DNA from: a virus
Strand: one strand, 5' to 3'
Virus record (IMG/VR): IMGVR_UViG_3300039106_000586
Span: 1 to 33,732 of that record
Length of the DNA stretch: 33,732 bases
Every line of letters begins with the position of its first letter. Position 1 is the stretch's first letter. This document shows positions 11,301 through 32,977 of this stretch, one piece after another. The notes under the pieces are model-generated. The model saw only the letters and a program-made list of their open reading frames with translations. It searched no databases and had not been told where the DNA came from. Both the position numbers and the translations under genes were made by a program.

Positions 11301-11797
11301 CTGTGACAGAACCAGACCGTCCCACTATTGATGAACTCAGTACTGAATATCAAAAACTACAAGATTATAAAATGCTCAGCGACAACGTAATTGTCAACTC
11401 GGTGGTGTTTAAACCTTTGTTTGGCGCCAAGGCTGCGCAAGAATTACGGGCCACGATCAAAGTTATACGTGCTCAAAATTCAGTGGCCAGCACCAGTGAA
11501 ATTAAAAGTAGTGTGTTGGCAGAAATGAACAATTATTTCAGCATTGATAAATGGAATTTTGGGGACACATTTTATTTCTCAGAATTGGCTGCTTATTTGC
11601 ATCGTCAATTGGGCACCATTATCAGTTCTGTGGTTTTGGTACCCTTGGACCAACAAAAGTATTTTGGCGACTTGTATGAGATCCGTAGTCAACCTAATGA
11701 AATTTTTGCCAACGGTGCTACAATTGCCAATATTGATGTAATTGATGCACTGACCAGTACCAATTTGCGTACTGCACCAGGTAGTGGAGTAATTTAA
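8372..11797 (+). CDS. gp6: Baseplate wedge protein gp6 (baseplate J-like)
   Basis: A 1141-residue protein whose N-terminus is a clear gp6-family match: YDFETLRKSFIDYLRLYYPE, SEFIALLDVMAFMGQALAFR, then NTRENYMDTAERRDSVVRLA. T4 gp6 forms the dimeric ring that holds the wedges together. The family's central beta-rich region includes FGDGVFSQIPVG near residue 345, and the C-terminus has TIANIDVIDALTS. It is much longer than T4 gp6 (660 residues), with extra beta-rich sequence in the middle and C-terminal half. Residues 824-832 read DSDNDGVPD, a calcium-loop pattern like thrombospondin type-3 repeats. The stop overlaps the ATG of the giant gene (TAATG), so the two are probably translationally coupled. 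Confidence 0.92.
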   Translation: MATTTRQTAIFGVEDWKQIYQTYREADFQSYDFETLRKSFIDYLRLYYPETFNDYIESSEFIALLDVMAFMGQALAFRTDLNTRENYMDTAERRDSVVRLANLVSYTAKRNTAAEGYLKVFNVTTTENVVDYNGVNLSNVTVNWADPTNPDWQEQFTAIINASLVDSQKVGRPGNRQTILGVDTAEYGINLVPGFLPVVPYTAVVDGVNMPFEAMTSTSVGQNYVYEPSPQPNTTFNVLFRNDQLGFQSANTGYFFLFKQGILQNQDFNLSERIANRTVDINIEGVNNEDRWLFQLDNLGNISQEWRYVENIYQAAAERSTSLIPLYSVTSRANDQITMVFGDGVFSQIPVGIFRAYVRASNGLQYIINPEEMQNVVIPISYIDRNGNLQTITFTCGITRPVSNSQAREPIAEIKQRAPARYYTQNRMVNGEDYNLFPYTAYNSIIKSKALNRASIGTSRYLDLVDNTGKYSSTNTFSSDGALWENNILPTILFSWTNRNEVADLIANQVQPALIAATMKQFYYANFPRETVNTGSTALSTWHQSTTLANETTGYFVNASGTPIAVGDSSSTVFQYAITGSLIRFVPPTGYYFDRNNRLVQGTPMRADERMEIWASPQVIVGDGYNGGIGNLPSGAGPVTINNFVPTGAIVDVIIPEYATSLSNSVKQAMVEQILLYRNFGLGYDSTGSVTGTPYTWYLITSTNLATDAAWSQQYAGNTSGANLDASWVAQFVVQNQNYTITLRGLAYYFGSVLQTRFFFYEDQLVYDSRTGTIIKDFINVLAVNTQPNSTEPLPGDIYTTIIGQPVESDGYVDDFQVLVSYRDSDNDGVPDNPDFFEEIVGPATTAGPYVFLQQTVDFDNLQRYLLAEPGVVNYDYGTLDEIELVKTEWSPGQVFYAYDQNAFYQLSISTTGVRTLVAVSSWIARTGRQALYFQYRHNSPLTNRIDPGSTNIIDLYVVTQAYYTAYQNWLRDTTGTVTEPDRPTIDELSTEYQKLQDYKMLSDNVIVNSVVFKPLFGAKAAQELRATIKVIRAQNSVASTSEIKSSVLAEMNNYFSIDKWNFGDTFYFSELAAYLHRQLGTIISSVVLVPLDQQKYFGDLYEIRSQPNEIFANGATIANIDVIDALTSTNLRTAPGSGVI

Positions 11798-14700
11798 TGG
11801 CACGCACACGCTCAGTTGATTTCTTACCAGAAATCTTTAGAACACCAGTTAACAAACAGTTTTTAGGTGCCACACTTGATACACTGATTCAAGAACCAAA
11901 ATTCAAAAAGACTCAAGGATTTATTGGTCGCACAGTGGGTCCTGGGGTCAATCCCAACGACAAATATGTTGTTGAGCCGGACAGCACTCGTCAAAATTAC
12001 CAACTTGAACCTGGCATTGTCAGTCTTGAACCGGATATTGACAAGATAAAAAATGTCATTACGTATCCCGGCATTAATGATGCTATTGGTTTTCAAGGCG
12101 GCAATCAAACTAGACCGGATCAACTTTACAGCAGTGATTATTACACATGGGATCCATTTGTAAACTTTGACACATTTGTCAACTTCAGTCAATATTTTTG
12201 GTTGCCTAATGGACCCGATACTGTTAACGTGCGTTCCACTGGGGTGCTAACATCAGAAAATTTTGTAGTTACTAGAGCCAATGGTGCATACACCTTCTCT
12301 GGCCTAAATGGAAATAATCCCACTTTGGATCTAGTGCGCGGCGGCAGTTACACATTCCAAGTGGCACAGAATACCAAAGAAACAATAAATTATCGAGTTC
12401 AGAACAACGGCACCTCTTCATATATCTTAGATGGTGTTGCCAACCCCACTATTACTTTGGCACGTGGTAATACCTATGTGTTCAACCTCAACCTGACAGG
12501 TAACTTTCCTTTTTGGATCAAGACCCAAGCCACACTTGGCACAGGTAATGCTTATGACACTGGTGTAAGCCGCAATGGCAGTACCTTGGGAGTAGTCACT
12601 TTTGTAGTGCCACAGGATGCTCCTGATACTCTTTACTATGTCTCCGAGAATCAATTTAATTTGCGCGGCACAATCAATGTCGTCAACGGCACCCCCGGAA
12701 CCGGTCCAGGATTTTGGATTCAAACAGCGCCAGGTGTATCAGGCAATGATCCAATAAGTCCCAATCTGTCAGATCGTGAAGTATACGGGGTAGTCAACAA
12801 TGGTGAAGACCTTGGCGTGGTAACGTTTGAAGTGCCACAAAAAACTGACCAGGCATTTTATTTTAATTTGCCTGATGTAGGACCAGTTGACCTGTTAACT
12901 ACTTTACAATTTGATCAAATCAACGGCCAACCCTTGAACCAGTTTATCAACACCTATGGCGGTATTGATGGAACAACTTATCTTGATTCAAGAACTTTGG
13001 TTTTTACCAATCCTGTTCTAGATGCCGAAACTGGCGGATGGTTATACAACAGCGGGTTTGATCCATTGAGTCATGCTGTGCCCAGCAACGAAGGCGCGGT
13101 TGGCAGCTATGACACCACGCTGTACGCTGAGAGCATTCCAGTCCCTGCAGAAGACCGTTATCAAATTTGGCAAATCAACATTGTCAACGTTGATGGTGTT
13201 GAGTTCATACAGTTAGCCAAAATACAAAATGTAAATTTAAATGAAAAATTTACTATTCTGTATGGCACAGTGTATAGTAATACTAGTTGGTACAAAAACA
13301 GTACTGGATTATTTCAACGTATTCCTGCACTGACTGCCACACTAGATACATTGTATTACCAAGACGGCACTGATCCAGAAATATTTGGGCGCATAAGACT
13401 GCTAGAGCAAACCAGTAGTTCTACTTTGTTTGTATCAGAAATCTTGGGACGTAAAAATTACACTAGCCCCAACGGAGTGGCATTTACTAATGGACTCAAA
13501 GTTAAATTTACTGGTGAGGTATCACCAGCTGAATATGGATCTGGCTCAACGTCATTTACATGCACTGCCACAACTGGCGGTAGCAATTATATAACTTGTA
13601 CATCAACTGCTGGCTTGTACGAAGGCGAAGAAATAGTGTTCCCTAGCGGAACTCTAGGCGGGATAGAGACTGGAAAAGTTTATTTTATAAAAAGTATTTC
13701 AGCTAACGGCATTCAATTTTCAATCAGCACAGTCAAAGATGGCGCTACTGTGACAATAAGCACAGCCACAGGGTCTATGGCTGCCATAGCCATTAGCAAT
13801 AAAGAATACTATGTTTCTGGAGTTGGCACAGCCATTGAATTGTTGCCAGTGACTGATTTTATTACTCCCGAAACTTACGTAGTTGATGCTAATGACAGCA
13901 CCATAGCCAGTGAGCCTGACAAACTGGATTATTTGACCATCAATCGTGCCAGCAAGGATTTAAATGCATGGACTAGAAGCAACCGTTGGTTTCATATTGA
14001 TGTAATCAATGCAGTCGCTGCCTATAATGGCACATCAGCAGTGCTAGACAACAACTATAGAGCCAAACGACCAATCATTGAGTTTAGACCCAATCTGCAT
14101 TTGTACAACATGGGCAGTCAAGGCAAGCAACCAATTGACATTATTGATTTTTCACAAACAGATGCATTTAGCAATGTAGAAGGTACCACCGGCTATTCAG
14201 TAGATGGGTATACTTTTGTTGACGGATCAAGAGTGGTGTTTGCCAACGACATTGATCCAGATGTACGTGACAAAATTTATATTGTGCAGTTTATAACCCC
14301 AGACACAGTGCCTCCATTAATTGCACAACCAATTATAAATCTTGTATTGGCCAGCGATGGTGCGGTGCTGTTCAATCAAAGTGTTTTGTGCATTGACGGT
14401 GATACCTCTCAAGGTATTACATATTGGTATGATGGCACTCAATGGATCGAAGCGCAACAAAAAACTGCTGTACAACAGGCACCATTGTTCAATGTGTATA
14501 ATTTGCAAGGCATTAGTTTTGGAGACCAAACCACATATCCGTCAAGTACTTTTGTTGGCAGCAAATTGTTCAGCTATGCTGTGGGCGATACCACAGTATT
14601 AGATCCTATCTTGCAATTCCCATTGCAATACCTCAACATCAACAACGTTGGTGATATTGTGTTTGAAAACAACTTGTACAAAGATACATTTGTTTACGTA

Positions 14701-17700
14701 ATTGACAATGTAAGTACCGTACTTGATATTAGTTCAGGTGCAGTAAGAGAATATGTTGACCGTACAAATTTTGTTAAATTGATTGGCTGGCAAGATGCCA
14801 TTACCACCAGCGAAATTTATCAACAATTTAAATTCACTTACACTGGTGCAACCATCAAACTAGATGTAGCTGTCAACACCAACACTGTGGTGCCTGCTGT
14901 TAAAATTTATGTAGGCTCAGTGTTTCAGAAACCTGACACGTATACCTATGTTGTTGGTGCCAATACCACTACAATCACTCTCAGCAAAGTGTATGTCCCC
15001 ACTGACATTATTGAAATTTTGGTCTTGAGTGATCAGACCAGCACTCAAGGATTTTATCAAGTTCCAATCAATTTAGAATCAAATCCTTTGAACGGTAACA
15101 GCCCTAGTTTTACATTGGGTACAATTCGTACTCATTACGAAAGTATTTGTGAAAATCTCAACGACTTAACAGGAGCGGTCACTGGCGCAAACAACACTAG
15201 AGACTTGGGAAATATTGTTCCTTATGGTCTTGTAATATTGCAACAAAGCGCACCACTCACGTTGGCAGGGTATTTCTTGCGCAGTGAAAGCTATAATATT
15301 TTTGCGTCATTGCAGTACAACAGCAGAGAATATCAAAAATTCAAAGGTCAAATGCTAGAAGCAGTGACCCAGCAAGTTGTAAATTTTCAAACAGCCGGCG
15401 AAATATTAGATACTGCTATTGCAGACATTACAATGGGACGAGTTGAAAATCAACCGTTTTATTGGAGTGACATGCTGCCAACTGGGGCAGTTTATGAAAC
15501 CACTGCCTACACAGTGTCTTATACCACATCAAATGTATTTGATACTCAATACATTTATAACTATTCTTCGGCCAACTATCAAGGCATGAATGTGTATGTC
15601 AATGGCGAAATACTCACACGTGGGCGTGACTATGTTGTGGCCACAGATGGACCTAGAATCACAGTGTTGTCTACTTTAAACATTGGCGATGTTGTTACCA
15701 TTAATGAGTACACCAGCACGTATGGCAATTTTGTACCAAATACACCAACTAAGTTAGGACTGTATCCATCATGGAGACCAGAGTATATCAATCAGCGTAC
15801 TAGTACAGGTGAAGTTTTGTGTATTGTTGGGCATGATGGTAGTATTACCCGAGCATTTAACGACATACGTGATGAAGTATTGTTAGAGTTTGAAACTAGA
15901 ATATTCAACAATCTCAAGTTGGACGGAAATCCAGTGCCGCTGTCTGTGACCGATGTACTGCCAGGACAATTTAGAAATACTGGGTTTACCACAACAGATA
16001 TCAACAATATTTTAAACCAAAACTTTTTAAGTTATGTGGCTTGGAACAAACTAGACTACCGCACACAAGATTATCAAGCCAACAATGCATTTACTTACAA
16101 TTACAGTGGAAGTCAAAGCAAACTAGACAACGATGCATTGCCCGGAGCTTGGCGTGGTATCAATCGTTACTACTATGACACACAACAACCTGAGCAAGTG
16201 CCTTGGGAATTGTTGGGATTTAGTATTAAACCAGACTGGTGGAACACTGTCTATGGTGAAGGTCCGTACACACAGGACAACTTGGTGTTATGGGATGACT
16301 TAGAAGCAGGGTATGTTAGCGACCCTGTGGTGCCGTACTATCGTCCTGAATACGCAAGACCAGGATTGACCAGTGTTATACCTACTGGCACAGAAGGAGA
16401 ACTACTGCCACCATTTGATTACGTAGTAGGAAACTACAACGAATTGAGCTTCCGCAAAAGTTGGGCACTGGGAGATGGCAGTCCTGTAGAAGCATCTTGG
16501 TGGAACAGCAGCGATTATCCATTTGCAGTCATGCGACTACTGGCTCTTACACGCCCAGCTAAATTCTTTGCATTGTTTGCTGATCGAGATCTGTACAAGT
16601 ATAACACTGAATTCAATCAATACCTGTACAATGATAGATACAGATTAAATGCAAGAAATATTGAAGTTTACGGAGACGGAGTCAGCAAAGCCAGTTACAT
16701 TGACTGGATTGTGGACTTTAACCGTCAAAGCGGAATTAACAGCACTGCTGACCTCACAGCAGATTTGCAAAATCTAGATGTAAGACTGTGTTATCGCATG
16801 GCCTCATTCTCAGACAAACAATATATTAAAATTTACACTGAAAAATCCAGTCCCAACGCAACCAATACCACGTTCTTAATTCCTGATGAAAGTTATGATT
16901 TGGTGTTGTATAAAAATCAACCTTTTGACCGTGTTAGTTTTTCCAGTATAGTAATTCAGAAAGTAAGCAATGGATATGCAGTGTTTGGATACAGTAAAAC
17001 CCAGCCATTCTTTAACACTGTAGGTAGTCAATATACCGGACAACTTCAATCATTTACTGTGTCCGGTATAACCGTGCGTGTACCAACATTTTACACTGAC
17101 ACTGTGGTGCAAATACCCTACGGATATATTTTCAACGACGAAACTTCAGTATCAAACTTTTTATTGACTTATGGAAAATATTTAGAAAAACAAGGGTTTG
17201 ACTTTACTGATCAAACCAACGGGTATATTCTAAACTGGGATCAAATGGTTACAGAATTTTTGTACTGGAGTCAGCAAGGCTGGGACGAAAATGCACTGAT
17301 CAACTTGAACCCCTTGGCGTTTAAACTCAGCGTGACTCGTGAACAAGCTGTGATAGATAGCATTGCGGTACAAACAAGTGAAGATATTTTGCTTGATCAA
17401 AACAATCGTGAGTTGCCTACTAAAAATCTAATTATTACTAGATTGGACAACACATTCACAGTTGAGCCAGCCACTGACCAAACGTTAAGTTACATAGATC
17501 TCAAGTACACTTCTTATGAACACATGATTGTGTTGAACAATGCCAGTGCATTTGGTGATTTGATTTATCAACCCACAACAGGTGCTAGACAAAGCAGACT
17601 AAACTTAGTGGCAGCCACCACTACCGAATGGAATGGTAGTGTAGATGCTCAAGGTTTTATTTTAAATCAAGACAATATCAAGGCTTGGGATTCTTATCGT

Positions 17701-20700
17701 ACCTATGCCAAAGGCGAAATTGTAACATACAAAGGCGCATATTGGTCAGCAGCTGATATTGTTCAGCCTAGCACAGTGTTCAACCCTAACAATTGGTATC
17801 AAAGCGATTACACACGAATTGAACTTGGACTGTTGCCCAATTTGGCCAACAAAGCCGATCAACTGCAAAACAGCTACAACATCAACACAGCCAATTTGGA
17901 ATCAGATAATGATTTGTTGAGCTATGGATTGATTGGGTTTAGACCAAGACAATACATGACATCATTGAACCTAGATGACGTCAGCCAACTAAACATTTAC
18001 CGTCAGTTTCTTGGCAGCAAAGGTACCATACTCAGTGCCGAACTTTTTGCTCAGGCCAACCTTGGCAAGGAACAAGCCGACTACGACATTTACGAAAATT
18101 GGGCAGTTCAACGTGCTGTTTACGGAGCCAACGCCAATCGCAGTTTCTTCCAGCTCAGGTTAAATCGTGCCTTGCTCAGCAGTAATCCCAGCCTAGTGCA
18201 AGTAATAGACCCAGGTCAAAGCAGTCAGGCTGATCAAACCATATTGTTGGAAAATGTGTGGCGCCAAAGTTATCGATTGACATCGCCGGAAATTTTGCCG
18301 GTTACCACCCAGGTGCCAACAGACACTGGATTGCCATCGGCTGGGTATGTTAATTTTGATGACGCTGATATCACTGTGTTTGATCTTGCTGATAATACCA
18401 GTCTGGCAGCTAATATTAACTTAATAGAAGTAGGCACCAGTATTTGGGTAGCCAAAACAAATGCTTATGATTGGGACATCTATCGTGCTCAGGCAGTTCC
18501 AGGGGTACTACAACACATTTGTGACAATCTTGATGGCAGCAGTCTTGCAATTTTTAGTAAACAACATCAACTAGAAATTGGTGACAAACTCATAATCAAA
18601 TTCTTTGATGTAGAAGTTGATGGAGTCTACACAGTATTGTCAGTGGTAGATCTAAATACTGTGACTATTGCATTTAGTTTCACTGGTGATCGCACAGTGG
18701 TCAATGGCAATGGTCTTGGATTTACATTAGAAACTCAACGAGTGGCACAGGCCAGTGATGTTGTAAATTTACCATACGCCAACAGTATTCAACCAGGTGC
18801 CAAGGTATGGGTTGATAACAACGGAGCAGGATTGTGGGAAGTGATTGAAAAACAATCAGTATTCACCGAACTCATAGAATATGCACCTACATTAGCTGAT
18901 GTTGATCAACAGTATGGATCCGCTGTAACGCAGGCTCCAAATAAATTTGCTGCCTTGGTGGGCAGTCCAAGATACAGATTCCCCACTGGGTCCACATTGT
19001 GGAATCCGGCCAACACTTACGATACAAATGATATTGTATTCATTGCTGATCCTTATCAAACAGAATTTTTTCAGGCATTGTATGTGCCAGTTCCGCAAAA
19101 TACGCCACTGGATGCTTTAATTACTATCGTCCCCTACGTAGGACTTCCTTACTGGACTCCATATTCACTAGGCTCGTTGCCAAGAAAAGGCGGAGTGTAT
19201 GTATATGTCAAGAGTGATGTTAATGATAATCTCATACCAGTCAGTCCACTAGACCCAGCAGATGCTGTGTTTACTCTTGATGTCACAGGTGTTCGAGGTT
19301 ATGGTAACAGCGTTGATTTTGGTAATAGTACCTGGGCAGTAGCTGGCGCAAGTGCCAGTTTGGGGTCAACTAGTCAAAGCGACAATGGATATGCCTGTGT
19401 GATTTATCGCAATCCTGAACTTGGTTCTCCAGGAACTATTCCATATGACCAATGGCAGTTGTTAACCACGCCGGGCAGTGTCAGCGCAGATCAAAACAAA
19501 TTTGGTTACAGCGTTGCCATGAGCCTGGACGAACGTTGGATGTACATTAGTGCTCCGGGCAACAACCAAGTTTATGCATATGGTAGAGTAGACTGGCAAA
19601 AACAAATTATTAATACTGTAGGTAACGGGGTTAACACAATCTATCCTATAAGTGATGCAATTCAAATCAATGCAGCAACACAATTACAAATAGTTGTGGC
19701 CGGTGACATTTTGATCTTAAACACTGATTACACAGTTGATCCAGCCTATACTCAAGTGACCTTTTCTACAGCACCTGCTGACGGGGCCGGAGTTACAATT
19801 CAACGTGTTAGTCGCAAGTTACTGGATTACGAAACTTATTATAGCCTGTCAGGCACTGGAGGCACTGGATCTAATGCAACATTTACCGTTACCAGAAGTC
19901 GCGGTACTGTAGCAGTGTCGGTACAAACTGGCGGCTCAGGGTACGCTAATGGCGAGCCCAGCGCAGGCACTATCACTATTCCAGCGGCAAGTTTTGGCGG
20001 AGGTACTAGCCCCACCAATGACATTACTATGCAAGTGGTAGTATCTGGTGGAGTAATAACTGGCATATACGATAACCCAACTTATGTGGCGCCAACATTG
20101 ACCACTACATTTTCTCTCAATGAATATTTGTTTACTGCCACAAACATCAACAGTTTTAGCGTGTTGGTAGACAATGTATTACAACGACCCAACATTGATT
20201 ATACATTCAATGCAGGCACTTATGATTTGACATTTTTAAATTCTCCAACAACTGGTTCTAGCATTTTGGTCAGAGCCGAAGGATACTTCTTGTATGCTGG
20301 CAACATTACCGCAGCAGGACTAACAGTGGGAGATCAATTTGGATACAATATCAGTACCAGCACTGATGGTCGACAACTGTTGGTCGGTGCTCCAAACAGC
20401 ACTGAAAACAGCAAAGCAGAAGCCGGCAGTGTTTATGTGTTTGACAGAAACGTACAGCGTTTTATCTACAACACAAGTACCCCTACCTTGACATTTACTG
20501 TGTTGGGCACTGTAACTGCCCCAGTCGGTGTGTCCGTCAATGGAGAATTTTTAATAAATGAAGCTTGTGCTACTTTGGGTGCAAACAATACATTTACAGT
20601 TAGTGGAAATGATGTCACAATCAATGCAGACTTGCAAATTGGTGATATAATTGAAATTGAAACCAATCAATTTGCGTCGACACAACAAATCACACAAAAC

Positions 20701-23700
20701 ATAATAGAAGGTTTCAGTAACTTTGGACAAGCAGTAGACTTATGCAACTATAATTGCAGTTTGTATGCTGGGGCACCTCAAAGCAGTTTGCAAATAGTAA
20801 AAGGTGGCGTGGTTGAGCGTAGTGTAAATCAAAGTCGTGCATACGGCATCATCACTGCCACAGTGGCCAATCCATCATTGACACCTAATACTACACTGAG
20901 AGTAAACAATATTGATTGTTCAGTAACTAACTCAAATACGTTGGTAACAAGTGTAACAGAGTTGGCCGCCAACATCAATGCCACAGTGGCCAATGTCAAT
21001 GCCACAGTCAGTACTACAGGGTATCTAACTTTGGCTGTTAAAAACTCAGCCGCTGCCCCAGTGGGAGACAAACTACAAGTGGCACCGGGATCAGTAGGCA
21101 CAGTGTTTGACGTTTTGGGATTTGAAACATTTGTATACACCCAAACCATTCAAAGTCCTTATCCTACAGGATATGCTAGTTTTGGCAGCAGTATCAGTAT
21201 TGATGATTCAGCTGTGAATCTTGTGGTGGGTGCACCACGTGGTACTTTGTACATACTCACAGACTTTGACAACTTTACCACAGTGTGGGACGCAGGCGCC
21301 ACTGATTTCTTTGACTTGATTCTACAAAGTGGTGCAGTGTATGTTTATAATTTGTTACCAAGTTCTAATTCCAGTGTTACCAACCCTGACAAATTTGTGT
21401 TTGGTCAACAAATCAACAACGCTGATGTAAACAGTTATGACCAGTATGGAACAGCAGTAAGTTATGTAGACGGGGTGCTGTTGACAGGTGCGCCTGGCAA
21501 CGAACGAGACGACAGCACCTTGACTGGAAATTATGGCCGGGTGTTTGTAAGTCAAAATCCTAGTCGTGCGCTGTCTTGGACAGTGTCGCGTATTCAACCG
21601 CCCACAGTTGATATTAGATTGTTAAACAGTGCATACATCTATGACAGAATCAGTTCGGCCACAACACAATATTTTGATTTCTTTAATCCGTTGCAGGGCA
21701 AAATACTAGGTGCAGCCAGACAAAATATTGATTACATTGGCGCAATAAATCCCGCTGGCTACAACGTTGGTCCTGTGGGCATTCGTGGACAGACTTGGGG
21801 CAGCGACCACCTGGGAGAAGTTTGGTGGGACACTAGCACAGTTAGATTCATTGATCCCAGCCAAGACAACATAGTGTACGCAAGCCGACGTTGGGGACAA
21901 ATTTTTCCAGGCAGTTCAGTAGATGTATATCAATGGATTGTCAGCACAACCCCACCAGCCACCTACGCTGGCCCAGGCACACCATTAAACACCACTAGTT
22001 ATGTGATCAACACTGTGTTGAATCAAACTGGAACATTTGATACTGAATATTTTTTCTGGGTTAAAGGACTAACCACAACTGCTACTCAACAAGGTAAAAC
22101 TCTGCCAGTAAGCACAGTGGCCAATTATATTGCAGATCCTAGAGCCAGCGGTATTGCTTATATTGCACCCATTAACTCCAGTACTATTGCATTGTACAAC
22201 GCACAAGATTATATTGTGGCTGAAGATTCAATTATCAGTATTGAGTTTGATCGCGAATACACCGATGACAATGTGCATGTTGAATATGAACTTGTGGCCC
22301 AAAACAATGCCGACGGGTGGATCAGCAACAATTTATATCGCAAATTACAAGACAGTTTCTGTGGTGTTGACACTGCTGGAAATCTAGTACCTGATGTTAA
22401 TCTAGGCCCGGCTGAACGTTATGGCGTGCAGTTTAGACCTCGCCAAAGCATGTTTGTGGATAGATTTGCTGCTCTTAAAAATTATTTGACTCATGCCAAT
22501 TCAGTGCTGTCCCGCTATCCCATCAGCGAAAGTCGTTCATTTGTGCTGTTGAACAGCCGAGATCCTGAACCCAGTGCTATTAGTGGACAGTGGGATAAAC
22601 GTGTGGCCAATCAGGAAATATTAGGATTCCAAGATATCTATACAGTGCCAGTTGGTTATCGATATCTTGTTGTGTCAGACAGCAACAATAGAGGCCTTTG
22701 GACCATTTATACTGTGGTTCAATCTGGCGCTGTGCGCTCACTGGTGTTGACAAAAGTACAAAATTACAATACACCCAGTTACTGGAGTTATATCAACTGG
22801 GTGCGCCCTGGATACATAGCCAGCAAAAAAGTTTTGATGACTGTACCAAATTATGCAGGATTGGGTGCGCTGGATGTACCTATTGGTACCAGCGTTGAAG
22901 TCATGGCCAATGCTCAAGGCAAGTATGAAATTTATTTGTTTACTGATTTGGGTTGGGAAAGAGTGGTATTACAAGATGGTACTATAGAATTTTCTGCTGA
23001 ACTTTGGGATTATCAATTAGGAAGATTTGGATTTGATGTTGAAGTATTTGACGCACAATACTTTGATCAAGAACCTGTAATTGAAACACGTAAAATTATA
23101 CAAGCCATTAACGAAGAGTTATTTGTAAATGACTTGTTGATTGAACGCAATCGTTCATTGACCTTGATGTTTGACTTTGTGCTGAGTGAATTCAGTGCGC
23201 CTGGCTGGTTGATAAAAACAAGTTTGGTAGATGTTACTCACAGAATTAGAAGTTTGTTACCTTACCAAAACTACAGCAGGGACAATCAAGAGTTTGTATT
23301 AGATTACATCCAAGAAGTAAAGCCATATCATGTACAAGTAAGAGAATTTAATTTGATCTACAATGGATTTGATCAATGGTTTGGCGATATGACTGATTTT
23401 GATTTGCCAGCATTCTTTAACACCAATTTAGATGTGCCGCAATACACTAGTCCAATTTTGTTGCCGTACGATCACGGCACTGCCGCCAACAGCGAATCAA
23501 ACACCAAGAGTGATTTCCCTTCCAACAGCACAGTATGGAGTACTTGGCCGTATAATCAGTGGTACAGTACATATTTGTTGAGTCTTGATTCAGTTTACGT
23601 GATAGAAACTGGGTCAGGATATACCGAACCTCCTTTGGTAATATTCCAAGGTGATGCTTTGGTACCTGCTGAAGCCACAGCAGTGTTAAACAGTTTAGGG

Positions 23701-26700
23701 CAAGTTGTAGCAGTAAACGTAATTGACCCTGGTCAAGGATATAGATCTACACCTACTATTGTGTTTGATGGTGGCAATGGGTCGGGCGCAGTGGCATATC
23801 CAAGAATGACCAATGCTACCACAAGATCGTTCCGCACTGTGATTAGATACGATCGTTTTCAATATCAAACTTCTGTGCAAACTTGGAGTCCAAACGGAAC
23901 ATATGAAAACGGCACCTTGGTTAGATACGATGCTCGTGTATGGTCTGCTGCCAGCGCAGATGGTAGTAGTGCAGTGGTCGGACCGAATTTTGATATAGAA
24001 AATTGGACCTTGGTCAATGCAGCTAATTATACCTATCCTGGTGCAACACAACCCACAGGGTTAACTGGGGTTGATCGCACCATGGGCTTGTACGTACCAG
24101 GAGTAAACGAATACGGACTTGAATTACCGCTGTTGGTTGACGGAATAGATTATCCAGGAGTCCAAGTCTGGGGCAAATATTTTGCAGGATCAGAAAGTAC
24201 ATTGACACTGGATGCTGAGTATCAAAGCAGTTTTGCAGACATATATTTGGGCACTAGATTTACAGACATCAATGTTGATGGCGGAGAGTTTATTGGACTA
24301 TATGAAGGTCATGCACCTGAAGAGTTGGTCAATGGCAGTGAATACGACACGTTAGATTTGCGTGTTTACACTCGTCCAGGATCTGACTGGCAAAATAATG
24401 GACATAGTTTCCAGATTGGAACAATCAATTATGTTTATGATCCGGCAGCAACAGCTATTTACAGCTGGGCTGGTGCGGTACAGCGACCAGCTCAAATTAT
24501 AGTAAACAACCTAACCACTGGTATTCAGCTCACAAAAGATATTGATTACTTGGTTAATTGGGTAGGGCAAACAGTAGAAATTTTAAGCGGCATTGTCAGC
24601 GGTGAAATTATAAACATTGAGGTTTATGAAATCGGTGGCGGCAATCAGCTGTATAGAGCCATTTATCCTGGACAAGATGTTGCTAATTTTGCCAACTCAG
24701 TAATTGTGCCAGTAAATTACAAAGAAATTCTTGACATAGCAACGTTTATTAATGGCGCACCTGTGACATCTCCTGTTGCTGAACCTTGGTCTGAGTCACA
24801 ATCTTGGAATCTCAACGACACCTATGTATCCCTAGATGTAGTGTTAAATGACACTGCATTGACATGTACTGAAACTAATTCAACTTACAACACCATAACT
24901 TGTAACAACACCAGTGCGTTAACTGCAGGGCAACCTATTGTATTTTCTGGTACAACCTTTGGAGGTATATCAGCTGGTGTCACATATTATGTGCTAGAGA
25001 TTCCCAACAGTTTGCAGTTTTTCATCACTGATCAAGCAGGTTCTACAACACCATACTCATTGACAAATGCCACTGGTAGTATGACCGCACAACCAAAAGG
25101 AACTTATTATCGTGCCATACAAGATGTGCCTGCAGGCATATCATTGACCAATGCAAATTATTGGTTGCCTTTTATTCCATCTTTGTACAGTCGTGCAACT
25201 TTTGGCAATACAATCACTTCAAATGACGAAATATCATTGGTAGTATTGGGATCAACCACATCAAGTCCAGTTACTAACACTGCGGTTGGAACCAATGCAA
25301 TAACTATACAAGGCAGCACCAGTGGATTAACATTGGGACAAGAAGTAACATTCTTTGGAACATCATTGGGTGGCATTCCTGTTAATCAAACTTTGTATGT
25401 GTTAAACATAATTAACGGCACTAGTTTTACAGTAGAAATAACACAAGGCAGTGGCACTCCTGTCAACTTGTTGACTGATCAATCTACATGGGTTGGAGAA
25501 CTCACAGTAAAATTTGCGCCTAGCGAAATATATAGTTGGAGCACTCCAGTTATTGAAACCATGGTGGCTGACACTGAATTGGTTGTTTCAAAGATAATAC
25601 CAGTCAGCGCCACTTTAGAAGGCACAAACCCAGCCAATCTAGTGGTCACACAAAATGGATTGCGCCTGCGGCCGCCAGAAGGCATTGAATGGGCTGGTGA
25701 TGGCAATTCTGTAAGTTTTGGATTACCGCAACGTGGTGGGTACCCACAAAGTATTATCAATGCCCCTACTGATATCAATGTATGGGTAGACGGTATTTTA
25801 AAAACACAAAGCTATGGAGCAATCATTGGTGATTATAGTGTAACAAATTGGACTGGCAGCAACGTTCCTGGTCGACAAGTAGTTTTTAACACACCGCCAG
25901 CAGCTGGTGCTAATATTTTGATATCTGTAACTACACAGGCCGATTATATGGTGCTTGTTGACTCAATTGAAATTGCTTCAACAATCAACTTTGGTGATGT
26001 GTTTACAGTGACAACTTGGAATGATACACAACAACAAAACTTGTTGACATTGGTGTTCCAAGGACCAATCGCTACCGGCCTGGTAGTAAATGAACCATAT
26101 GACAGTACAAACTATGATACCGGTACTGTGGACTTTGATCCTGGCACATACGATTACACTCTAGGAACACAAACATTTATTAATGATTTTAATCTTCAAA
26201 GAGTTGGTATTAGTGCTGATAGACTATGGGTCACTTTGGATGGTTACAGACTGTTTGCTGGATCAGATTATACCGTGCAAGGACAGTATCTCATATTAGC
26301 GTCCGGCGCTATAGGAGCAGCTCAAGTCATGGCCATAACTGAAGTGGCAGAGAGTGTGGTGCCAGAAGCTATGGCATTTAGAATTTTCCAAGACATGCGC
26401 GGAGTTCAAGCAACTTATAGAATCACTGATACTACCACAACAGAGCTTGCTGCATCATTGTCAGCCACAGCTGATATAATTTATGTGAATGATGCAACCA
26501 AACTCACAGCACCCGATTTGCCAAATGGCGTGTTTGGAGTCATCACCATAAATGGTGAACGTATAATGTACCGCAATAGAGATACTGCACTCAGTACATT
26601 GTCAGGACTACAACGTGGCACCGCTGGCACTGGTGCAGCAGCACATCCAATAAGTAGCAGTGTGTATGATCTAGGTCGAGGCAACTTGCTGGACGAAGAG

Positions 26701-27099
26701 TACCAAGACTATGTGGTCAAAGATTCAACTCTAGCAGACGGATCAACCACAGTGTTTTATGCACCCAATATTGATATCACAGACTTTGGCGACTCTAGCA
26801 CAGCTTATATAGAAAGTATTGAAGTATATGTTGGAGGTATCAAACAATACAATTATAGCGATACCAGTGCCACCAGTGAATACCGTTACATTGTAACAGA
26901 TTTTGGACCATTGGCCATTGAATTCATAGTTGACAACAACCCAGTGTCCCCTATGTTGGCACCTCCTGCTGGAGTCGAAGTTACTATTTTACAACGTCGT
27001 GGATTGAGCTGGTATCATCCAGGATTGACTACCGCTAGTGACGGTGTAGCACTACAAGAAACCGACACAAAAGCAGCAAGGTTTTTGCGCGGTGGATAA
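11797..27099 (+). CDS. Giant mosaic baseplate/tail structural protein, 5100 residues
   Basis: A single uninterrupted frame of 5101 codons, coupled to gp6 by TAATG. It holds the place where T4 has gp7 (~1030 residues), but I see no gp7 similarity. The N-terminus begins MARTRSVDFLPEIFRTPVNK and continues with a Trp/Tyr-rich opening region. Modules in order: a nested cupredoxin-like pair (~169-358); a 'GGI...Y' repeat (~586-665); adhesin-like modules at 1035 and 1264; a long Trp/Tyr-rich core (~1300-2000); a CBM5/12-like module (1961); a probable seven-bladed FG-GAP propeller with inserts (~2365-3275); another Trp/Tyr-rich section (~3310-3900); two GxGY repeats (3939, 3979); and a C-terminal array of CBM-like, GGI and adhesin-like modules. 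It ends near GVALQETDTKAARFLRGG. No protease or transmembrane signature is visible. Likely a peripheral baseplate or host-adsorption protein; that role rests on synteny and domain style. Confidence 0.85.
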   Translation: MARTRSVDFLPEIFRTPVNKQFLGATLDTLIQEPKFKKTQGFIGRTVGPGVNPNDKYVVEPDSTRQNYQLEPGIVSLEPDIDKIKNVITYPGINDAIGFQGGNQTRPDQLYSSDYYTWDPFVNFDTFVNFSQYFWLPNGPDTVNVRSTGVLTSENFVVTRANGAYTFSGLNGNNPTLDLVRGGSYTFQVAQNTKETINYRVQNNGTSSYILDGVANPTITLARGNTYVFNLNLTGNFPFWIKTQATLGTGNAYDTGVSRNGSTLGVVTFVVPQDAPDTLYYVSENQFNLRGTINVVNGTPGTGPGFWIQTAPGVSGNDPISPNLSDREVYGVVNNGEDLGVVTFEVPQKTDQAFYFNLPDVGPVDLLTTLQFDQINGQPLNQFINTYGGIDGTTYLDSRTLVFTNPVLDAETGGWLYNSGFDPLSHAVPSNEGAVGSYDTTLYAESIPVPAEDRYQIWQINIVNVDGVEFIQLAKIQNVNLNEKFTILYGTVYSNTSWYKNSTGLFQRIPALTATLDTLYYQDGTDPEIFGRIRLLEQTSSSTLFVSEILGRKNYTSPNGVAFTNGLKVKFTGEVSPAEYGSGSTSFTCTATTGGSNYITCTSTAGLYEGEEIVFPSGTLGGIETGKVYFIKSISANGIQFSISTVKDGATVTISTATGSMAAIAISNKEYYVSGVGTAIELLPVTDFITPETYVVDANDSTIASEPDKLDYLTINRASKDLNAWTRSNRWFHIDVINAVAAYNGTSAVLDNNYRAKRPIIEFRPNLHLYNMGSQGKQPIDIIDFSQTDAFSNVEGTTGYSVDGYTFVDGSRVVFANDIDPDVRDKIYIVQFITPDTVPPLIAQPIINLVLASDGAVLFNQSVLCIDGDTSQGITYWYDGTQWIEAQQKTAVQQAPLFNVYNLQGISFGDQTTYPSSTFVGSKLFSYAVGDTTVLDPILQFPLQYLNINNVGDIVFENNLYKDTFVYVIDNVSTVLDISSGAVREYVDRTNFVKLIGWQDAITTSEIYQQFKFTYTGATIKLDVAVNTNTVVPAVKIYVGSVFQKPDTYTYVVGANTTTITLSKVYVPTDIIEILVLSDQTSTQGFYQVPINLESNPLNGNSPSFTLGTIRTHYESICENLNDLTGAVTGANNTRDLGNIVPYGLVILQQSAPLTLAGYFLRSESYNIFASLQYNSREYQKFKGQMLEAVTQQVVNFQTAGEILDTAIADITMGRVENQPFYWSDMLPTGAVYETTAYTVSYTTSNVFDTQYIYNYSSANYQGMNVYVNGEILTRGRDYVVATDGPRITVLSTLNIGDVVTINEYTSTYGNFVPNTPTKLGLYPSWRPEYINQRTSTGEVLCIVGHDGSITRAFNDIRDEVLLEFETRIFNNLKLDGNPVPLSVTDVLPGQFRNTGFTTTDINNILNQNFLSYVAWNKLDYRTQDYQANNAFTYNYSGSQSKLDNDALPGAWRGINRYYYDTQQPEQVPWELLGFSIKPDWWNTVYGEGPYTQDNLVLWDDLEAGYVSDPVVPYYRPEYARPGLTSVIPTGTEGELLPPFDYVVGNYNELSFRKSWALGDGSPVEASWWNSSDYPFAVMRLLALTRPAKFFALFADRDLYKYNTEFNQYLYNDRYRLNARNIEVYGDGVSKASYIDWIVDFNRQSGINSTADLTADLQNLDVRLCYRMASFSDKQYIKIYTEKSSPNATNTTFLIPDESYDLVLYKNQPFDRVSFSSIVIQKVSNGYAVFGYSKTQPFFNTVGSQYTGQLQSFTVSGITVRVPTFYTDTVVQIPYGYIFNDETSVSNFLLTYGKYLEKQGFDFTDQTNGYILNWDQMVTEFLYWSQQGWDENALINLNPLAFKLSVTREQAVIDSIAVQTSEDILLDQNNRELPTKNLIITRLDNTFTVEPATDQTLSYIDLKYTSYEHMIVLNNASAFGDLIYQPTTGARQSRLNLVAATTTEWNGSVDAQGFILNQDNIKAWDSYRTYAKGEIVTYKGAYWSAADIVQPSTVFNPNNWYQSDYTRIELGLLPNLANKADQLQNSYNINTANLESDNDLLSYGLIGFRPRQYMTSLNLDDVSQLNIYRQFLGSKGTILSAELFAQANLGKEQADYDIYENWAVQRAVYGANANRSFFQLRLNRALLSSNPSLVQVIDPGQSSQADQTILLENVWRQSYRLTSPEILPVTTQVPTDTGLPSAGYVNFDDADITVFDLADNTSLAANINLIEVGTSIWVAKTNAYDWDIYRAQAVPGVLQHICDNLDGSSLAIFSKQHQLEIGDKLIIKFFDVEVDGVYTVLSVVDLNTVTIAFSFTGDRTVVNGNGLGFTLETQRVAQASDVVNLPYANSIQPGAKVWVDNNGAGLWEVIEKQSVFTELIEYAPTLADVDQQYGSAVTQAPNKFAALVGSPRYRFPTGSTLWNPANTYDTNDIVFIADPYQTEFFQALYVPVPQNTPLDALITIVPYVGLPYWTPYSLGSLPRKGGVYVYVKSDVNDNLIPVSPLDPADAVFTLDVTGVRGYGNSVDFGNSTWAVAGASASLGSTSQSDNGYACVIYRNPELGSPGTIPYDQWQLLTTPGSVSADQNKFGYSVAMSLDERWMYISAPGNNQVYAYGRVDWQKQIINTVGNGVNTIYPISDAIQINAATQLQIVVAGDILILNTDYTVDPAYTQVTFSTAPADGAGVTIQRVSRKLLDYETYYSLSGTGGTGSNATFTVTRSRGTVAVSVQTGGSGYANGEPSAGTITIPAASFGGGTSPTNDITMQVVVSGGVITGIYDNPTYVAPTLTTTFSLNEYLFTATNINSFSVLVDNVLQRPNIDYTFNAGTYDLTFLNSPTTGSSILVRAEGYFLYAGNITAAGLTVGDQFGYNISTSTDGRQLLVGAPNSTENSKAEAGSVYVFDRNVQRFIYNTSTPTLTFTVLGTVTAPVGVSVNGEFLINEACATLGANNTFTVSGNDVTINADLQIGDIIEIETNQFASTQQITQNIIEGFSNFGQAVDLCNYNCSLYAGAPQSSLQIVKGGVVERSVNQSRAYGIITATVANPSLTPNTTLRVNNIDCSVTNSNTLVTSVTELAANINATVANVNATVSTTGYLTLAVKNSAAAPVGDKLQVAPGSVGTVFDVLGFETFVYTQTIQSPYPTGYASFGSSISIDDSAVNLVVGAPRGTLYILTDFDNFTTVWDAGATDFFDLILQSGAVYVYNLLPSSNSSVTNPDKFVFGQQINNADVNSYDQYGTAVSYVDGVLLTGAPGNERDDSTLTGNYGRVFVSQNPSRALSWTVSRIQPPTVDIRLLNSAYIYDRISSATTQYFDFFNPLQGKILGAARQNIDYIGAINPAGYNVGPVGIRGQTWGSDHLGEVWWDTSTVRFIDPSQDNIVYASRRWGQIFPGSSVDVYQWIVSTTPPATYAGPGTPLNTTSYVINTVLNQTGTFDTEYFFWVKGLTTTATQQGKTLPVSTVANYIADPRASGIAYIAPINSSTIALYNAQDYIVAEDSIISIEFDREYTDDNVHVEYELVAQNNADGWISNNLYRKLQDSFCGVDTAGNLVPDVNLGPAERYGVQFRPRQSMFVDRFAALKNYLTHANSVLSRYPISESRSFVLLNSRDPEPSAISGQWDKRVANQEILGFQDIYTVPVGYRYLVVSDSNNRGLWTIYTVVQSGAVRSLVLTKVQNYNTPSYWSYINWVRPGYIASKKVLMTVPNYAGLGALDVPIGTSVEVMANAQGKYEIYLFTDLGWERVVLQDGTIEFSAELWDYQLGRFGFDVEVFDAQYFDQEPVIETRKIIQAINEELFVNDLLIERNRSLTLMFDFVLSEFSAPGWLIKTSLVDVTHRIRSLLPYQNYSRDNQEFVLDYIQEVKPYHVQVREFNLIYNGFDQWFGDMTDFDLPAFFNTNLDVPQYTSPILLPYDHGTAANSESNTKSDFPSNSTVWSTWPYNQWYSTYLLSLDSVYVIETGSGYTEPPLVIFQGDALVPAEATAVLNSLGQVVAVNVIDPGQGYRSTPTIVFDGGNGSGAVAYPRMTNATTRSFRTVIRYDRFQYQTSVQTWSPNGTYENGTLVRYDARVWSAASADGSSAVVGPNFDIENWTLVNAANYTYPGATQPTGLTGVDRTMGLYVPGVNEYGLELPLLVDGIDYPGVQVWGKYFAGSESTLTLDAEYQSSFADIYLGTRFTDINVDGGEFIGLYEGHAPEELVNGSEYDTLDLRVYTRPGSDWQNNGHSFQIGTINYVYDPAATAIYSWAGAVQRPAQIIVNNLTTGIQLTKDIDYLVNWVGQTVEILSGIVSGEIINIEVYEIGGGNQLYRAIYPGQDVANFANSVIVPVNYKEILDIATFINGAPVTSPVAEPWSESQSWNLNDTYVSLDVVLNDTALTCTETNSTYNTITCNNTSALTAGQPIVFSGTTFGGISAGVTYYVLEIPNSLQFFITDQAGSTTPYSLTNATGSMTAQPKGTYYRAIQDVPAGISLTNANYWLPFIPSLYSRATFGNTITSNDEISLVVLGSTTSSPVTNTAVGTNAITIQGSTSGLTLGQEVTFFGTSLGGIPVNQTLYVLNIINGTSFTVEITQGSGTPVNLLTDQSTWVGELTVKFAPSEIYSWSTPVIETMVADTELVVSKIIPVSATLEGTNPANLVVTQNGLRLRPPEGIEWAGDGNSVSFGLPQRGGYPQSIINAPTDINVWVDGILKTQSYGAIIGDYSVTNWTGSNVPGRQVVFNTPPAAGANILISVTTQADYMVLVDSIEIASTINFGDVFTVTTWNDTQQQNLLTLVFQGPIATGLVVNEPYDSTNYDTGTVDFDPGTYDYTLGTQTFINDFNLQRVGISADRLWVTLDGYRLFAGSDYTVQGQYLILASGAIGAAQVMAITEVAESVVPEAMAFRIFQDMRGVQATYRITDTTTTELAASLSATADIIYVNDATKLTAPDLPNGVFGVITINGERIMYRNRDTALSTLSGLQRGTAGTGAAAHPISSSVYDLGRGNLLDEEYQDYVVKDSTLADGSTTVFYAPNIDITDFGDSSTAYIESIEVYVGGIKQYNYSDTSATSEYRYIVTDFGPLAIEFIVDNNPVSPMLAPPAGVEVTILQRRGLSWYHPGLTTASDGVALQETDTKAARFLRGG
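12301..12870 (+). other. Nested cupredoxin-like modules lacking copper ligands
   Basis: Residues 216-295 of the giant protein follow the phage/bacterial cupredoxin-like layout (NPTITLARGNTYVFNL, FPFWIKT, LGVVTFVVPQDAPDTLYY, then RGTINV). The four usual copper-ligand positions read Phe237, Ser283, Gln286 and Leu289 instead of His, Cys, His and Met. A first half-module (NPTLDLVRGGSYTFQVA, from residue 174) precedes it and a matching second half (FWIQT, then GVVTFEVPQ, ~306-358) follows. This suggests one copy is inserted inside another. Confidence 0.5.
13552..13791 (+). repeat. 'GGI...Y' beta-repeat, copy 1 of 3
   Basis: Residues ~586-665 of the giant protein: a Cys-containing lead strand (ITCTSTAGLYEGEEIVF), then GTLGGIETGKVYFI, and an ATGSM closing turn. 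Two diverged copies lie about 11 kb downstream. Confidence 0.6.
17677..17814 (+). other. CBM5/12-like carbohydrate-binding module, copy 1
   Basis: Residues ~1961-2006 of the giant protein: AWDSYRTYAKGEIVTYKGAY, then a Pro-containing loop and NNWYQ. The layout (Trp, 'Y..G..V.Y.G..Y.A', later 'P......W') matches small chitin/cellulose-binding modules common in tail proteins. The ligand is unknown. Confidence 0.55.
18889..21621 (+). other. Probable seven-bladed FG-GAP beta-propeller with inserted domains
   Basis: Residues ~2365-3275 of the giant protein carry seven 'Y/FG..V/I ... V/AGAP/SP' blade motifs, at 18913 (YGSAVTQAPNKFAALVGSP), 19300 (YGNSVDFGNSTWAVAGA), 19501 (FGYSVAMSLDERWMYISAP), 20338 (FGYNISTSTDGRQLLVGAP), 20722 (FGQAVDLCNYNCSLYAGAP), 21181 (FGSSISIDDSAVNLVVGAP) and 21445 (YGTAVSYVDGVLLTGAP). 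Most are followed by a closing strand such as GGVYVYV, GSVYVFD, GAVYVYN or GRVFVSQ. Spacings of 129, 67, 279, 128, 153 and 88 residues show that other modules are inserted between or within blades. It most resembles FG-GAP_2-type repeats, which lack the strict calcium loop of integrin alpha. Confidence 0.65.
18988..19164 (+). other. CBM5/12-like module inserted in the first propeller blade, copy 2
   Basis: Residues ~2398-2456: LWNPANTYDTNDIVFI, then FFQALYVPVPQNTPL and PYWTPY. It lies between the FG motif and the GGVYVYV closing strand of the first blade, so it would project from the propeller. Confidence 0.5.
23596..23810 (+). repeat. Tandem GxGY repeats
   Basis: Two adjacent units in the giant protein: GSGYTEPPLVIF from residue 3939 and GQGYRSTPTIVFDGGNGSGA from residue 3979, joined by an AxAxLNSLGQVVAV strand. 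A related single unit, GGSGYANGEPSAGTITIP, occurs at about 19933, inside the propeller inserts. Repeats of this type form short beta-hairpins in many tail proteins. Confidence 0.6.
23878..24030 (+). other. CBM5/12-like module, copy 3
   Basis: Residues ~4028-4078: TWSPNGTYENGTLVRYDARV, followed by WSAAS and NWTLV. Same Trp/'Y..G..V.Y'/Trp layout as the copy at 17677. Confidence 0.5.
24796..25191 (+). other. CBM5/12-like module split by a GGI repeat, copy 4
   Basis: Residues ~4334-4465. The opening half (SQSWNLNDTYVSLDVVL) and the closing half (GTYYRAIQDVPAGISLTNAN followed by YW) flank a complete 'GGI...Y' repeat at 24859-25092. The halves together give the usual module length, so the repeat appears to be inserted into it. 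Confidence 0.45.
24859..25092 (+). repeat. 'GGI...Y' beta-repeat, copy 2 of 3
   Basis: Residues ~4355-4432: ITCNNTSALTAGQPIVFSG, then FGGISAGVTYYVLEI and an ATGSMTA closing turn. This is the closest relative of the copy at 13552, including the Cys in the lead strand and the ATGSM ending. Confidence 0.6.
25270..25509 (+). repeat. 'GGI...Y' beta-repeat, copy 3 of 3
   Basis: Residues ~4492-4571: GLTLGQEVTFFGTSLGGIPV, then TLYVLNIINGTSFTVEI. It lacks the Cys and the ATGSM turn, so it is the most diverged copy. Confidence 0.55.
26430..26670 (+). other. C-terminal 'GERIMY...RGTAGT.AAAH' module
   Basis: Residues ~4879-4958: ADIIYVNDATKL, then GVITINGERIMYRNRD, then LSGLQRGTAGTGAAAHP. A strand with 'ingE.i.Y' followed by 'RG..GT.AAAH' recurs in tail and appendage proteins of environmental phages, usually near the C-terminus as here. 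Confidence 0.55.
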
Positions 27100-31831: not shown

Positions 31832-32588
31832 TGAACAAGGTTATGTGATTGTTGCTGTGAACAGCGACACTGTGGATTACTTGGACTGTGCCCGTACCCT
31901 GGCCAAGACCATACGATACTGGGATCCATCAGCGCGAATCTGTTTGATCACAGACAGTGCTTACACTGATCCCATATACGATTATCACCGACAACTTGTG
32001 CCACAAGCAAATCCATTTGCTAATGATGCACAACTATTCCGACTCACACCATTCCGTGAAACTATCAAACTAGAAGCAGATATGTTTGTTGTATCACCTA
32101 TTGCTCATTGGTGGGACCAGTTTAGACACAGAGATGTTGTAGTATCCACAGGCTGTAGAGATTGGCAGGACAACGTTAGCACAGTAAGACACTATCGCCG
32201 AGTATTTGATGCCAACAACTTGCCCGACGTTTACAATGCCATTACATATTGGCGGCGCAGTGAAACTGCTAAGGAATTTTTTGGTTGGGTTAGCAACATA
32301 TTTGCCAACTGGTTAGAATTCAAAAAACTCATAAAGTTTCCTGATGAAATACCATCAACCGATTTGGTTTATGCTATGGCAGCAGAGATCATGGGACCTG
32401 AACGTGTGACAATGCCATTCAGCACATATCCAAAGATAGTGCATATGAAACGACACATAGCAGGAACTGCCACTGAGGCCTGGACTAAAGAACTGGTTTG
32501 GGAATATCAGGATTGTCGTTTGCGAATACAAACAGTGGCACAAACAGGTGCATTTCATTACAATGTCAAACAATGGCGGGCACAATGA
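31818..32588 (+). CDS. GT-A-fold glycosyltransferase-like protein 2
   Basis: A TTG start at 31818 gives 256 residues, supported by a GGAGG at 31807-31811 with a six-base spacer. The nearby ATG at 31831 is out of frame. The N-terminus (YVIVAVNSDTVDYLDCARTL, then ARICLITDSAY) parallels the preceding protein. The DXD position reads Glu86-Ala-Asp88 (KLEADMFVV), an atypical first acid. A Trp/Arg-rich region (ISTGCRDW-like, then YWRRSETAKEFFGW) and HMKRHI near the end may contact substrate. The first acid change could mean altered metal binding or a non-catalytic partner of the previous protein. It overlaps the previous gene by 14 bases and the next by four (ATGA). Confidence 0.55.
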   Translation: MQPVDEQGYVIVAVNSDTVDYLDCARTLAKTIRYWDPSARICLITDSAYTDPIYDYHRQLVPQANPFANDAQLFRLTPFRETIKLEADMFVVSPIAHWWDQFRHRDVVVSTGCRDWQDNVSTVRHYRRVFDANNLPDVYNAITYWRRSETAKEFFGWVSNIFANWLEFKKLIKFPDEIPSTDLVYAMAAEIMGPERVTMPFSTYPKIVHMKRHIAGTATEAWTKELVWEYQDCRLRIQTVAQTGAFHYNVKQWRAQ

Positions 32589-32977
32589 AAAAAGTTTTTG
32601 TCAACGGCACGTTTGATATATTACATGTAGGACACATTGCCTTGCTTGACTATGCAAAGAGTCTGGGTGATCAGTTGGTTGTAGGCATTGACAGTGATGA
32701 CCGAGTTAGATTGTTAAAAGGATCTGATAGACCTATAAATTCTCAATTTGAACGAGGCACCTTACTCGCCGCACTTAAAAGTGTAGATGAAGTGTTTGTA
32801 TTTGACACAGACGATGAATTAAGAAGTCTCATTCAATCATGTGACGTCATGGTAAAAGGTTCTGATTACCGAGACAAACCCATAGTTGGTCAAGAGATAT
32901 GCAAACAAGTAGTTTTTTTTGAAAGATTAAATGGATACAGCACAACAAACAAAATACAAGATATTGCTAATCGGTGA
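32585..32977 (+). CDS. rfaE2: Heptose-1-phosphate adenylyltransferase (RfaE2, HldE C-terminal domain type)
   Basis: The ATG at 32585 overlaps the previous stop (ATGA) and gives 130 residues, the size of the HldE adenylyltransferase domain alone. NGTFDILHVGHIALLDYAKS carries the nucleotidyltransferase HxGH motif (His14-His17). It continues with LGDQLVVGIDSD, LLKGSDRPIN, VMVKGSDY and the family's GYSTTN near residues 117-122. The family transfers AMP from ATP to D-glycero-beta-D-manno-heptose 1-phosphate, giving ADP-heptose, the precursor of LPS inner-core heptose. In E. coli this domain is fused C-terminal to the kinase; here it is separate and encoded first. A related cytidylyltransferase substrate cannot be excluded, but the STTN ending favours HldE. 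Confidence 0.82.
   Translation: MKKVFVNGTFDILHVGHIALLDYAKSLGDQLVVGIDSDDRVRLLKGSDRPINSQFERGTLLAALKSVDEVFVFDTDDELRSLIQSCDVMVKGSDYRDKPIVGQEICKQVVFFERLNGYSTTNKIQDIANR

Follow-up and report, generated by a model that had tools for sequence, protein, structure and literature searches.

Beta-propellers at phage baseplates and integrin-like phage proteins have already been reported, with roles that are unproven. The C-terminal domain of PhiKZ gp131 (gp131C, PDB 4GBF) is a seven-bladed propeller at the baseplate periphery of a jumbo phage with a suspected receptor-binding role, and the receptor-binding protein (RBP) of Staphylococcus phage phi11 has a five-bladed propeller at the baseplate for which binding of N-acetylglucosamine was proposed (PMC4901313, PMC6115969). 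Also, the 'hemagglutinin' gp213 of phage AP-J-162 was reported to be similar to human integrin 3VI3 (PMC11242549). Here we analyse a virus record of 33,732 nucleotides (33.7 kb, IMGVR_UViG_3300039106_000586; called the window throughout), in which one open reading frame (ORF) encodes a giant protein of 5,100 amino acids (aa) with a predicted seven-bladed FG-GAP ring. Since baseplate propellers and integrin-like phage proteins are already published, the novelty is limited to two features: the ring sits within a giant scaffold protein of the wedge region, and its loops accommodate exchangeable modules. The PhiKZ gp131 propeller also has seven blades and comes from a jumbo myophage, but it is a C-terminal domain and not an insertion in a giant wedge-region protein; it is set apart by this description, and 4GBF was not among the 50 VIA-align matches listed for our ring model. 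The phi11 RBP is likewise a baseplate propeller, but is a trimeric RBP with five blades for which an insertion-scaffold layout is not described. The 'hemagglutinins' of Atu_ph07 (listed among the BFVD matches) and AP-J-162 come from related jumbo phages and are FG-GAP or integrin-like, but they stand alone with a length of about 400 aa and do not lie within the gp6-neighbour protein.

Seven blade starts with an F/Y-G motif were identified at residues 2373, 2502, 2569, 2848, 2976, 3129 and 3217, all in one ORF, and on each of them falls one of the seven motifs that an initial annotation of the window had placed at 18913, 19300, 19501, 20338, 20722, 21181 and 21445. The Pfam family FG-GAP_2 matches the surrounding 1,300 aa with E = 5.2e-13 (49.4 bits against a cut-off of 23), so that the curated cut-off for FG-GAP_2/FG-GAP (PF14312, PF01839) is exceeded, and blade 4 alone reaches 35.2 bits. 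When each blade was scanned singly, as the annotation had proposed, matches were found for blade 4 (1.5e-8), blade 7 (1.2e-4), blade 6 (0.0023) and blade 3 (0.011) but no FG-GAP match for blades 1, 2 and 5. From 79 related loci in a scan of viral contigs, the 61 distinct ones spanning the whole region were combined with the window into a set of 62 sequences (the homologues referred to below). Profiles of the seven blades from these homologues were compared with each other and with seven non-blade segments as controls. Blades 1, 3, 4, 5, 6 and 7 form one connected network with best links of 4e-10 to 4e-6, and blade-to-control links were never better than 0.002, which supports mutual sequence homology of these six and shows the motifs to be beyond chance. 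Blade 2 had no partner among the other blades in this comparison. Its motif GYGN..FG..AGA is kept throughout the homologues, and the model too folds this segment as a blade, which supports its status as the seventh repeat. The segments of the ring are as follows.

18856..18882, plus strand: N-terminal strand of the ring, residues 2354-2362, aligned from integrin residue 1 onwards; probable closing strand
18904..18993, plus strand: blade 1, strands A and B (YG..GSP), from alignment, profile and model
19183..19284, plus strand: blade 1, strands C and D, from alignment and model
19294..19467, plus strand: blade 2, divergent, strands A-D; conserved in 62 homologues and seen in the model, without a profile link to other blades
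19501..19593, plus strand: blade 3, strands A-C (FGYSVAMSLDERWMYISAPG), from Pfam, profile links and model
20281..20310, plus strand: blade 3, strand D (model strand E549-556)
20335..20466, plus strand: blade 4, strands A-C, best FG-GAP_2 match (E 1.5e-8; also 1.1e-9)
20668..20697, plus strand: blade 4, strand D (model strand E670-685)
20719..20844, plus strand: blade 5, strands A-C, with an invariant CxxxC in the A-B hairpin, from alignment, profile and model
21127..21153, plus strand: blade 5, strand D (model strand E831-838)
21178..21414, plus strand: blade 6, strands A-D, from Pfam, profile links and model
21442..21597, plus strand: blade 7 and exit strand, from FG-GAP_2 (E 1.2e-4), profile links and model

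In a second sample of 80 loci, queried with the flank downstream of the ring and partly overlapping the first, all seven blades occur in order in 75; in the remaining five the reading frame looked at is short or cut. One sequence (L040) has a blade-6 deletion of about 39 residues, either real or an assembly error. The CxxxC of blade 5 (D-[LI]-C-x-x-N-C-S-L-Y; 20743-20757, residues 2983-2987) is present in 62 of the 62 homologues, and it sits near the calcium position of integrin blades, perhaps with a part in metal binding or a disulfide.

An AlphaFold2 model of residues 2282-3349, calculated from the 62-sequence alignment, has a predicted local distance difference test (pLDDT) score of 80.4 and a predicted template modelling (pTM) score of 0.81; the blade residues are mostly above 90 and the low-confidence parts are mainly the two termini. 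The best VIA-align match is integrin alphaM (Z 33.9, 2.7 A, 365 residues), where model residues 73-983, that is residues 2354-3264 of the protein, are aligned over whole seven-bladed propellers. Integrins alphaX, alpha4, alphaL and alphaV follow at Z 31-33, as do seven-bladed WD40 proteins (Z 31-33). The predicted structure thus has the closed seven-bladed fold of integrin alpha, and residues from about 2354 to 3264 are predicted to be a single closed FG-GAP beta-propeller of integrin-alpha type. This is what the initial annotation had proposed from the blade count, and a ring was predicted instead of separate beta-sandwiches. It may be noted that the fold claim is based on VIA-align because Foldseek global alignments of the multi-domain model had low template modelling scores and a high root-mean-square deviation. 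Also, as integrins lead the VIA-align ranking by little, the term 'integrin-like' is founded on the fold and the FG-GAP motifs taken together. The alignment starts at integrin residue 1, which suggests closure by the N-terminal strand as in integrin. On comparing the ring sequence with PDB sequences no convincing match was found, and the profile reached integrin alpha-6 only at E 0.4.

Integrin alpha propellers (including alphaM and alphaX with their inserted I domain) have in common with the phage ring the seven blades, the FG..GAP motif, the Z values of 31-34 and a domain inserted in a propeller loop. They differ in that the phage ring has 17-20% identity to them, carries multiple inserts, spread over B-C and C-D loops of different blades, and has A-B loops of 1-2 residues without DxDxDGxxD calcium hairpins. 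This motif, expected in the A-B hairpins of the last blades, is present in only 3 of the 62 sequences and there at other places. Thigh and calf domains, a membrane helix and a beta-subunit partner were not found, the C-terminal neighbour being a phage scaffold conserved in RaK2-like phages. The ring of the giant protein is therefore not an integrin, since it has neither the calcium hairpins nor the remainder of the receptor; the likeness claimed by the annotation holds for the fold but not for strict integrin membership, and its overall interpretation is partly supported.

The blade spacing is uneven because insertions occupy the B-C loops of blades 1, 2 and 4 and the C-D loops of blades 3, 4 and 5, to which large insertions are confined in the 62 homologues. 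CBM-like, adhesin-like and GxGY inserts had been named as the cause; all are present, the adhesin/T7-tail-like module three times, and a Flagellin_IN-like module is a further insert that had not been named. In propellers, the B-C and C-D loop sets lie by convention on opposite faces. The inserts of the window are given below.

18994..19182, plus strand: B-C loop of blade 1, optional CBM5/12-like module; found in 10 of 62 homologues, no Pfam match of its own
19597..19812, plus strand: insert Ia, C-D loop of blade 3, T7-tail-fibre-N/adhesin-like (PF03906 E 1.8e-4, under the cut-off); homologous to Ic (hhalign E 2e-10)
19813..20112, plus strand: insert Ib, C-D loop of blade 3, GxGY module; homologues have a long form, a short form or none
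20113..20280, plus strand: insert Ic, C-D loop of blade 3, second copy of the Ia type by profile comparison
20467..20667, plus strand: insert Id, C-D loop of blade 4, third Ia-type module (hhalign to Ia E 2.3e-4, to Ic 4.1e-4)
20845..21126, plus strand: insert Ie, C-D loop of blade 5, Flagellin_IN-like (PF07196 in the version of homologue L003)

Across the homologues (L040 was excluded from this tally for its blade-6 gap), the B-C loops measure 3-71 residues in blade 1, 4-128 in blade 2 and 8-94 in blade 4, and the C-D loops 138-274 in blade 3, 63-70 in blade 4 and 89-159 in blade 5. The A-B loops (1-2 residues) and the D-A loops (5-17) stay short. The C-D loops of blades 3, 4 and 5 are filled in every case, whereas the B-C inserts of blades 1, 2 and 4 are optional. 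In the model, the long C and D strands of blade 4 extend into insert Id. The Flagellin_IN assignment is marginal, with 22.8 bits against a cut-off of 22.7 for PF07196 in the L003 version, and the Ie of the window was not listed in the Pfam scan. A long version of Ie occurs in 23 homologues, many of them with a nested CBM-like unit. The CBM5/12 assignment of the blade-1 insert had no Pfam match in the window or in homologue L045, and CBM_5_12 elsewhere in the protein stays below the cut-off. In other phages the blade-1 CBM-like unit recurs inside Ie, in the blade-5 loop (hhalign E 1.6e-9). Several positions among the homologues have a 'SVGTTDF' module. On a tree of blade columns only, the minimum number of changes is 7 (Ib type), 10 (Ie type), 3 (blade-4 insert) and 1 (blade-1 CBM). 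These data support a pattern of inserts placed in particular blade loops and differing from relative to relative, with the blades staying constant.

The giant gene and its surroundings are given by the following features.

11797..27099, plus strand: ORF of the 5,100-aa giant protein with the propeller; phrog_10938 'virion structural protein' family
8372..11797, plus strand: gp6-like baseplate wedge gene directly upstream of the giant ORF (phrog_10646 E 1e-273, phrog_219 E 4.7e-26)
15712..18381, plus strand: conserved scaffold before the insertion site, residues 1306-2195; common to RaK2, 121Q, XaC1, Atu_ph07, PA5oct and others
18484..18732, plus strand: small beta-barrel-like domain just ahead of the ring, residues 2230-2312; not in RaK2/121Q
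21589..23436, plus strand: conserved scaffold after the insertion site, residues 3265-3880; common to cultured relatives

Upstream of the giant gene are a hub/lysozyme-like gene, a gp25-like gene and the gp6-like wedge gene, and the order gp25-gp6-giant is the same in the cultured phages 121Q, RaK2, XaC1, Vibrio 2.275, Atu_ph07, Phosso and PA5oct. Scaffold homology and the place after the gp6-like gene put the protein in the phrog_10938 family of RaK2, 121Q and PA5oct. With the family members of RaK2, 121Q, XaC1, PA5oct and Atu_ph07 it shares gene position and flanking scaffold at about 21-28% identity, but their insertion site is without a propeller. On a wider comparison, the homologues of RaK2, 121Q, XaC1, PA5oct, Vibrio 2.275, Salicola SCTP-2, Atu_ph07 and Phosso align on both flanks of the ring and lack it. 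In its place most cultured relatives have 136-208 aa, SCTP-2 has 444 aa of unassigned type, and Atu_ph07 and Phosso have a GxGY-rich sequence of about 1,465 aa without FG-GAP. By these alignments, the ring is an insertion at one site in a giant baseplate-region protein, and the phages concerned are RaK2-related jumbo phages. The possibility that the Atu_ph07 and Phosso payloads are divergent propellers was rejected, as they have no FG-GAP motif and no blade-profile match; a LamG-like domain suspected by eye at the SCTP-2 site is not claimed, there being no Pfam match. FG-GAP_2 was not found in the whole genomes of 121Q, RaK2, XaC1 and Vibrio 2.275, and in the six larger window-type contigs it is found only in the giant protein. 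One FG-GAP ORF of 409 aa occurs in Atu_ph07 and four occur in Phosso, two of them giant and two of roughly 400 aa; none of these is the scaffold protein. The giant ORFs of Phosso (PV764938, about 48.3-56.5 kb and 60.3-68.9 kb; 3,182 and 3,702 aa) contain dozens of FG-GAP_2 repeats and are probably several propellers in tandem, the smaller ones being of 429 and 398 aa.

From the synteny with gp6, and from the PA5oct homologue gp355 being annotated as virion-detected by electrospray ionization tandem mass spectrometry, we infer that the giant protein is located in the baseplate region. The explanation that fits best overall, to which we give somewhat better than even chances, is that a fixed ring acts as a frame and its exchangeable loop modules display host-binding functions there. 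The ring would be the constant part of the giant protein, with the adhesin-like Ia, Ic and Id and the Flagellin_IN-like beta module Ie standing in the C-D hairpins of the consecutive blades 3, 4 and 5 on what is one face by convention, and with optional CBM-like and other modules exchanged into the B-C loops of blades 1, 2 and 4 on the conventionally opposite face. The protein would be placed in the wedge beside gp6, in or near the position of T4 gp7, and so several rings would be present per virion. There the ring may present its modules outwards for weak, many-copy contacts with cell-surface glycans, and module exchange may retune attachment while the frame is unaltered. The data suggest display of host-binding modules as the likeliest role, the ring being a platform for gripping bacteria. 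A more specific form, which we put forward only tentatively, is a phage counterpart of the integrin head whose two-face layout is evolvable: the fixed ring belongs to the baseplate wedge, and constant C-D modules occupy one face and B-C sockets for repeatedly exchanged adhesive modules the other, such that the attachment range shifts by swapping loops and not fibres.

Several points weigh against this display reading. The giant gene occupies the place of T4 gene 7, whose product is a six-copy wedge protein among the baseplate-periphery proteins (PMC3004832), yet hhalign of a 7-sequence gp7 profile against the family gave no homology, and T4 gp6, gp8, gp9, gp10 and gp11 showed none in profile search either. 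A fold search with a model of the scaffold (residues 1306-2345, pTM 0.45) listed no wedge protein; its matches were confined to a small beta-barrel and to a CBM-like unit from the baseplate of Agrobacterium phage Milano. As neither gp7 homology nor a wedge fold was found, 'gp7-like' is a statement of position only. The case for ring closure comes from the full-range superposition on closed propellers rather than from contacts measured in the model, the CBM-like matches fall below Pfam cut-offs, and no ligand or binding site was identified. Also, the ring is kept in virtually all members of the group, which would equally suit a purely structural role.

The main rival, from which host display is not decisively separated, is that the ring is a structural hub that makes no host contact and uses its loops and inserts to bind adjacent parts, either baseplate proteins or tail fibres, in assembly or contraction. 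Nearly all homologues have the blades together with inserts Ia, Ic, Id and Ie, seven-bladed WD40 hubs match almost as well as integrins, and Flagellin_IN-like and T7-tail-N-like modules are typical of assembly or fibre-attachment parts. However, CBM-like units that are optional and exchanged, and several loops that change in length, would be unusual for a pure assembly interface, and related phages with the same scaffold manage without the ring, so that we hold the hub to be possible and clearly less probable than display. It is unlikely that the giant protein is a whisker or fibre component rather than part of the wedge, with the ring as a fibre head domain. The missing gp7 homology, the elaborate tail fibres of RaK2-like phages (PMC10253068) and the FG-GAP repeats in other giant ORFs of Phosso would agree with it, but the gene stands directly after gp6-like and gp25-like genes both in the window and in those cultured relatives that were examined, and the scaffold is conserved across phages of very different hosts. 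An enzymatic propeller, for example a glycosidase acting on capsule or exopolysaccharide, is very improbable: among phage tail propellers there are enzymes (endosialidases), and a domain resembling an endosialidase barrel lies ahead of the ring, but the best fold matches are the binding propellers of integrin and WD40 type and not glycosidases, no search having been aimed at catalytic residues. Seven separate motif-bearing beta-sandwiches without a ring, a reading that no tool result supports although tandem sandwiches are frequent in beta-rich phage proteins, can practically be dismissed given the pTM of 0.81, the full-length superposition on closed propellers and the A-B and D-A loops that are constant across blades.

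A large group of uncultured aquatic jumbo phages keeps an integrin-type ring that its cultured cousins are without, and the case offers a natural example of a propeller as an insertion scaffold. The loops alone vary, in a definable pattern, which makes the propeller's contribution to attachment testable by removal of loop modules.

Some other observations were made on the giant protein and the window. In a second model, residues 2230-2312 (model residues 925-1007) match an E1-type half-domain with Z up to 10 and a phage endosialidase barrel with Z 8.7. A CBM5/12-like scaffold module at 17671-17808 (residues 1959-2004) superposes with Z 6.6 (1.2 A, 45 residues) on a domain from the receptor-binding complex of the Milano phage baseplate. 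A second large stretch, 12232-13866 (residues 146-690), is without a counterpart in RaK2, 121Q and XaC1 and mostly has none in other cultured relatives; it is another insertion site of the giant protein. Further downstream, 32498-32974 encodes a nucleotidyltransferase related to heptose-phosphate adenylyltransferases (phrog_7878), possibly tied to surface sugars.

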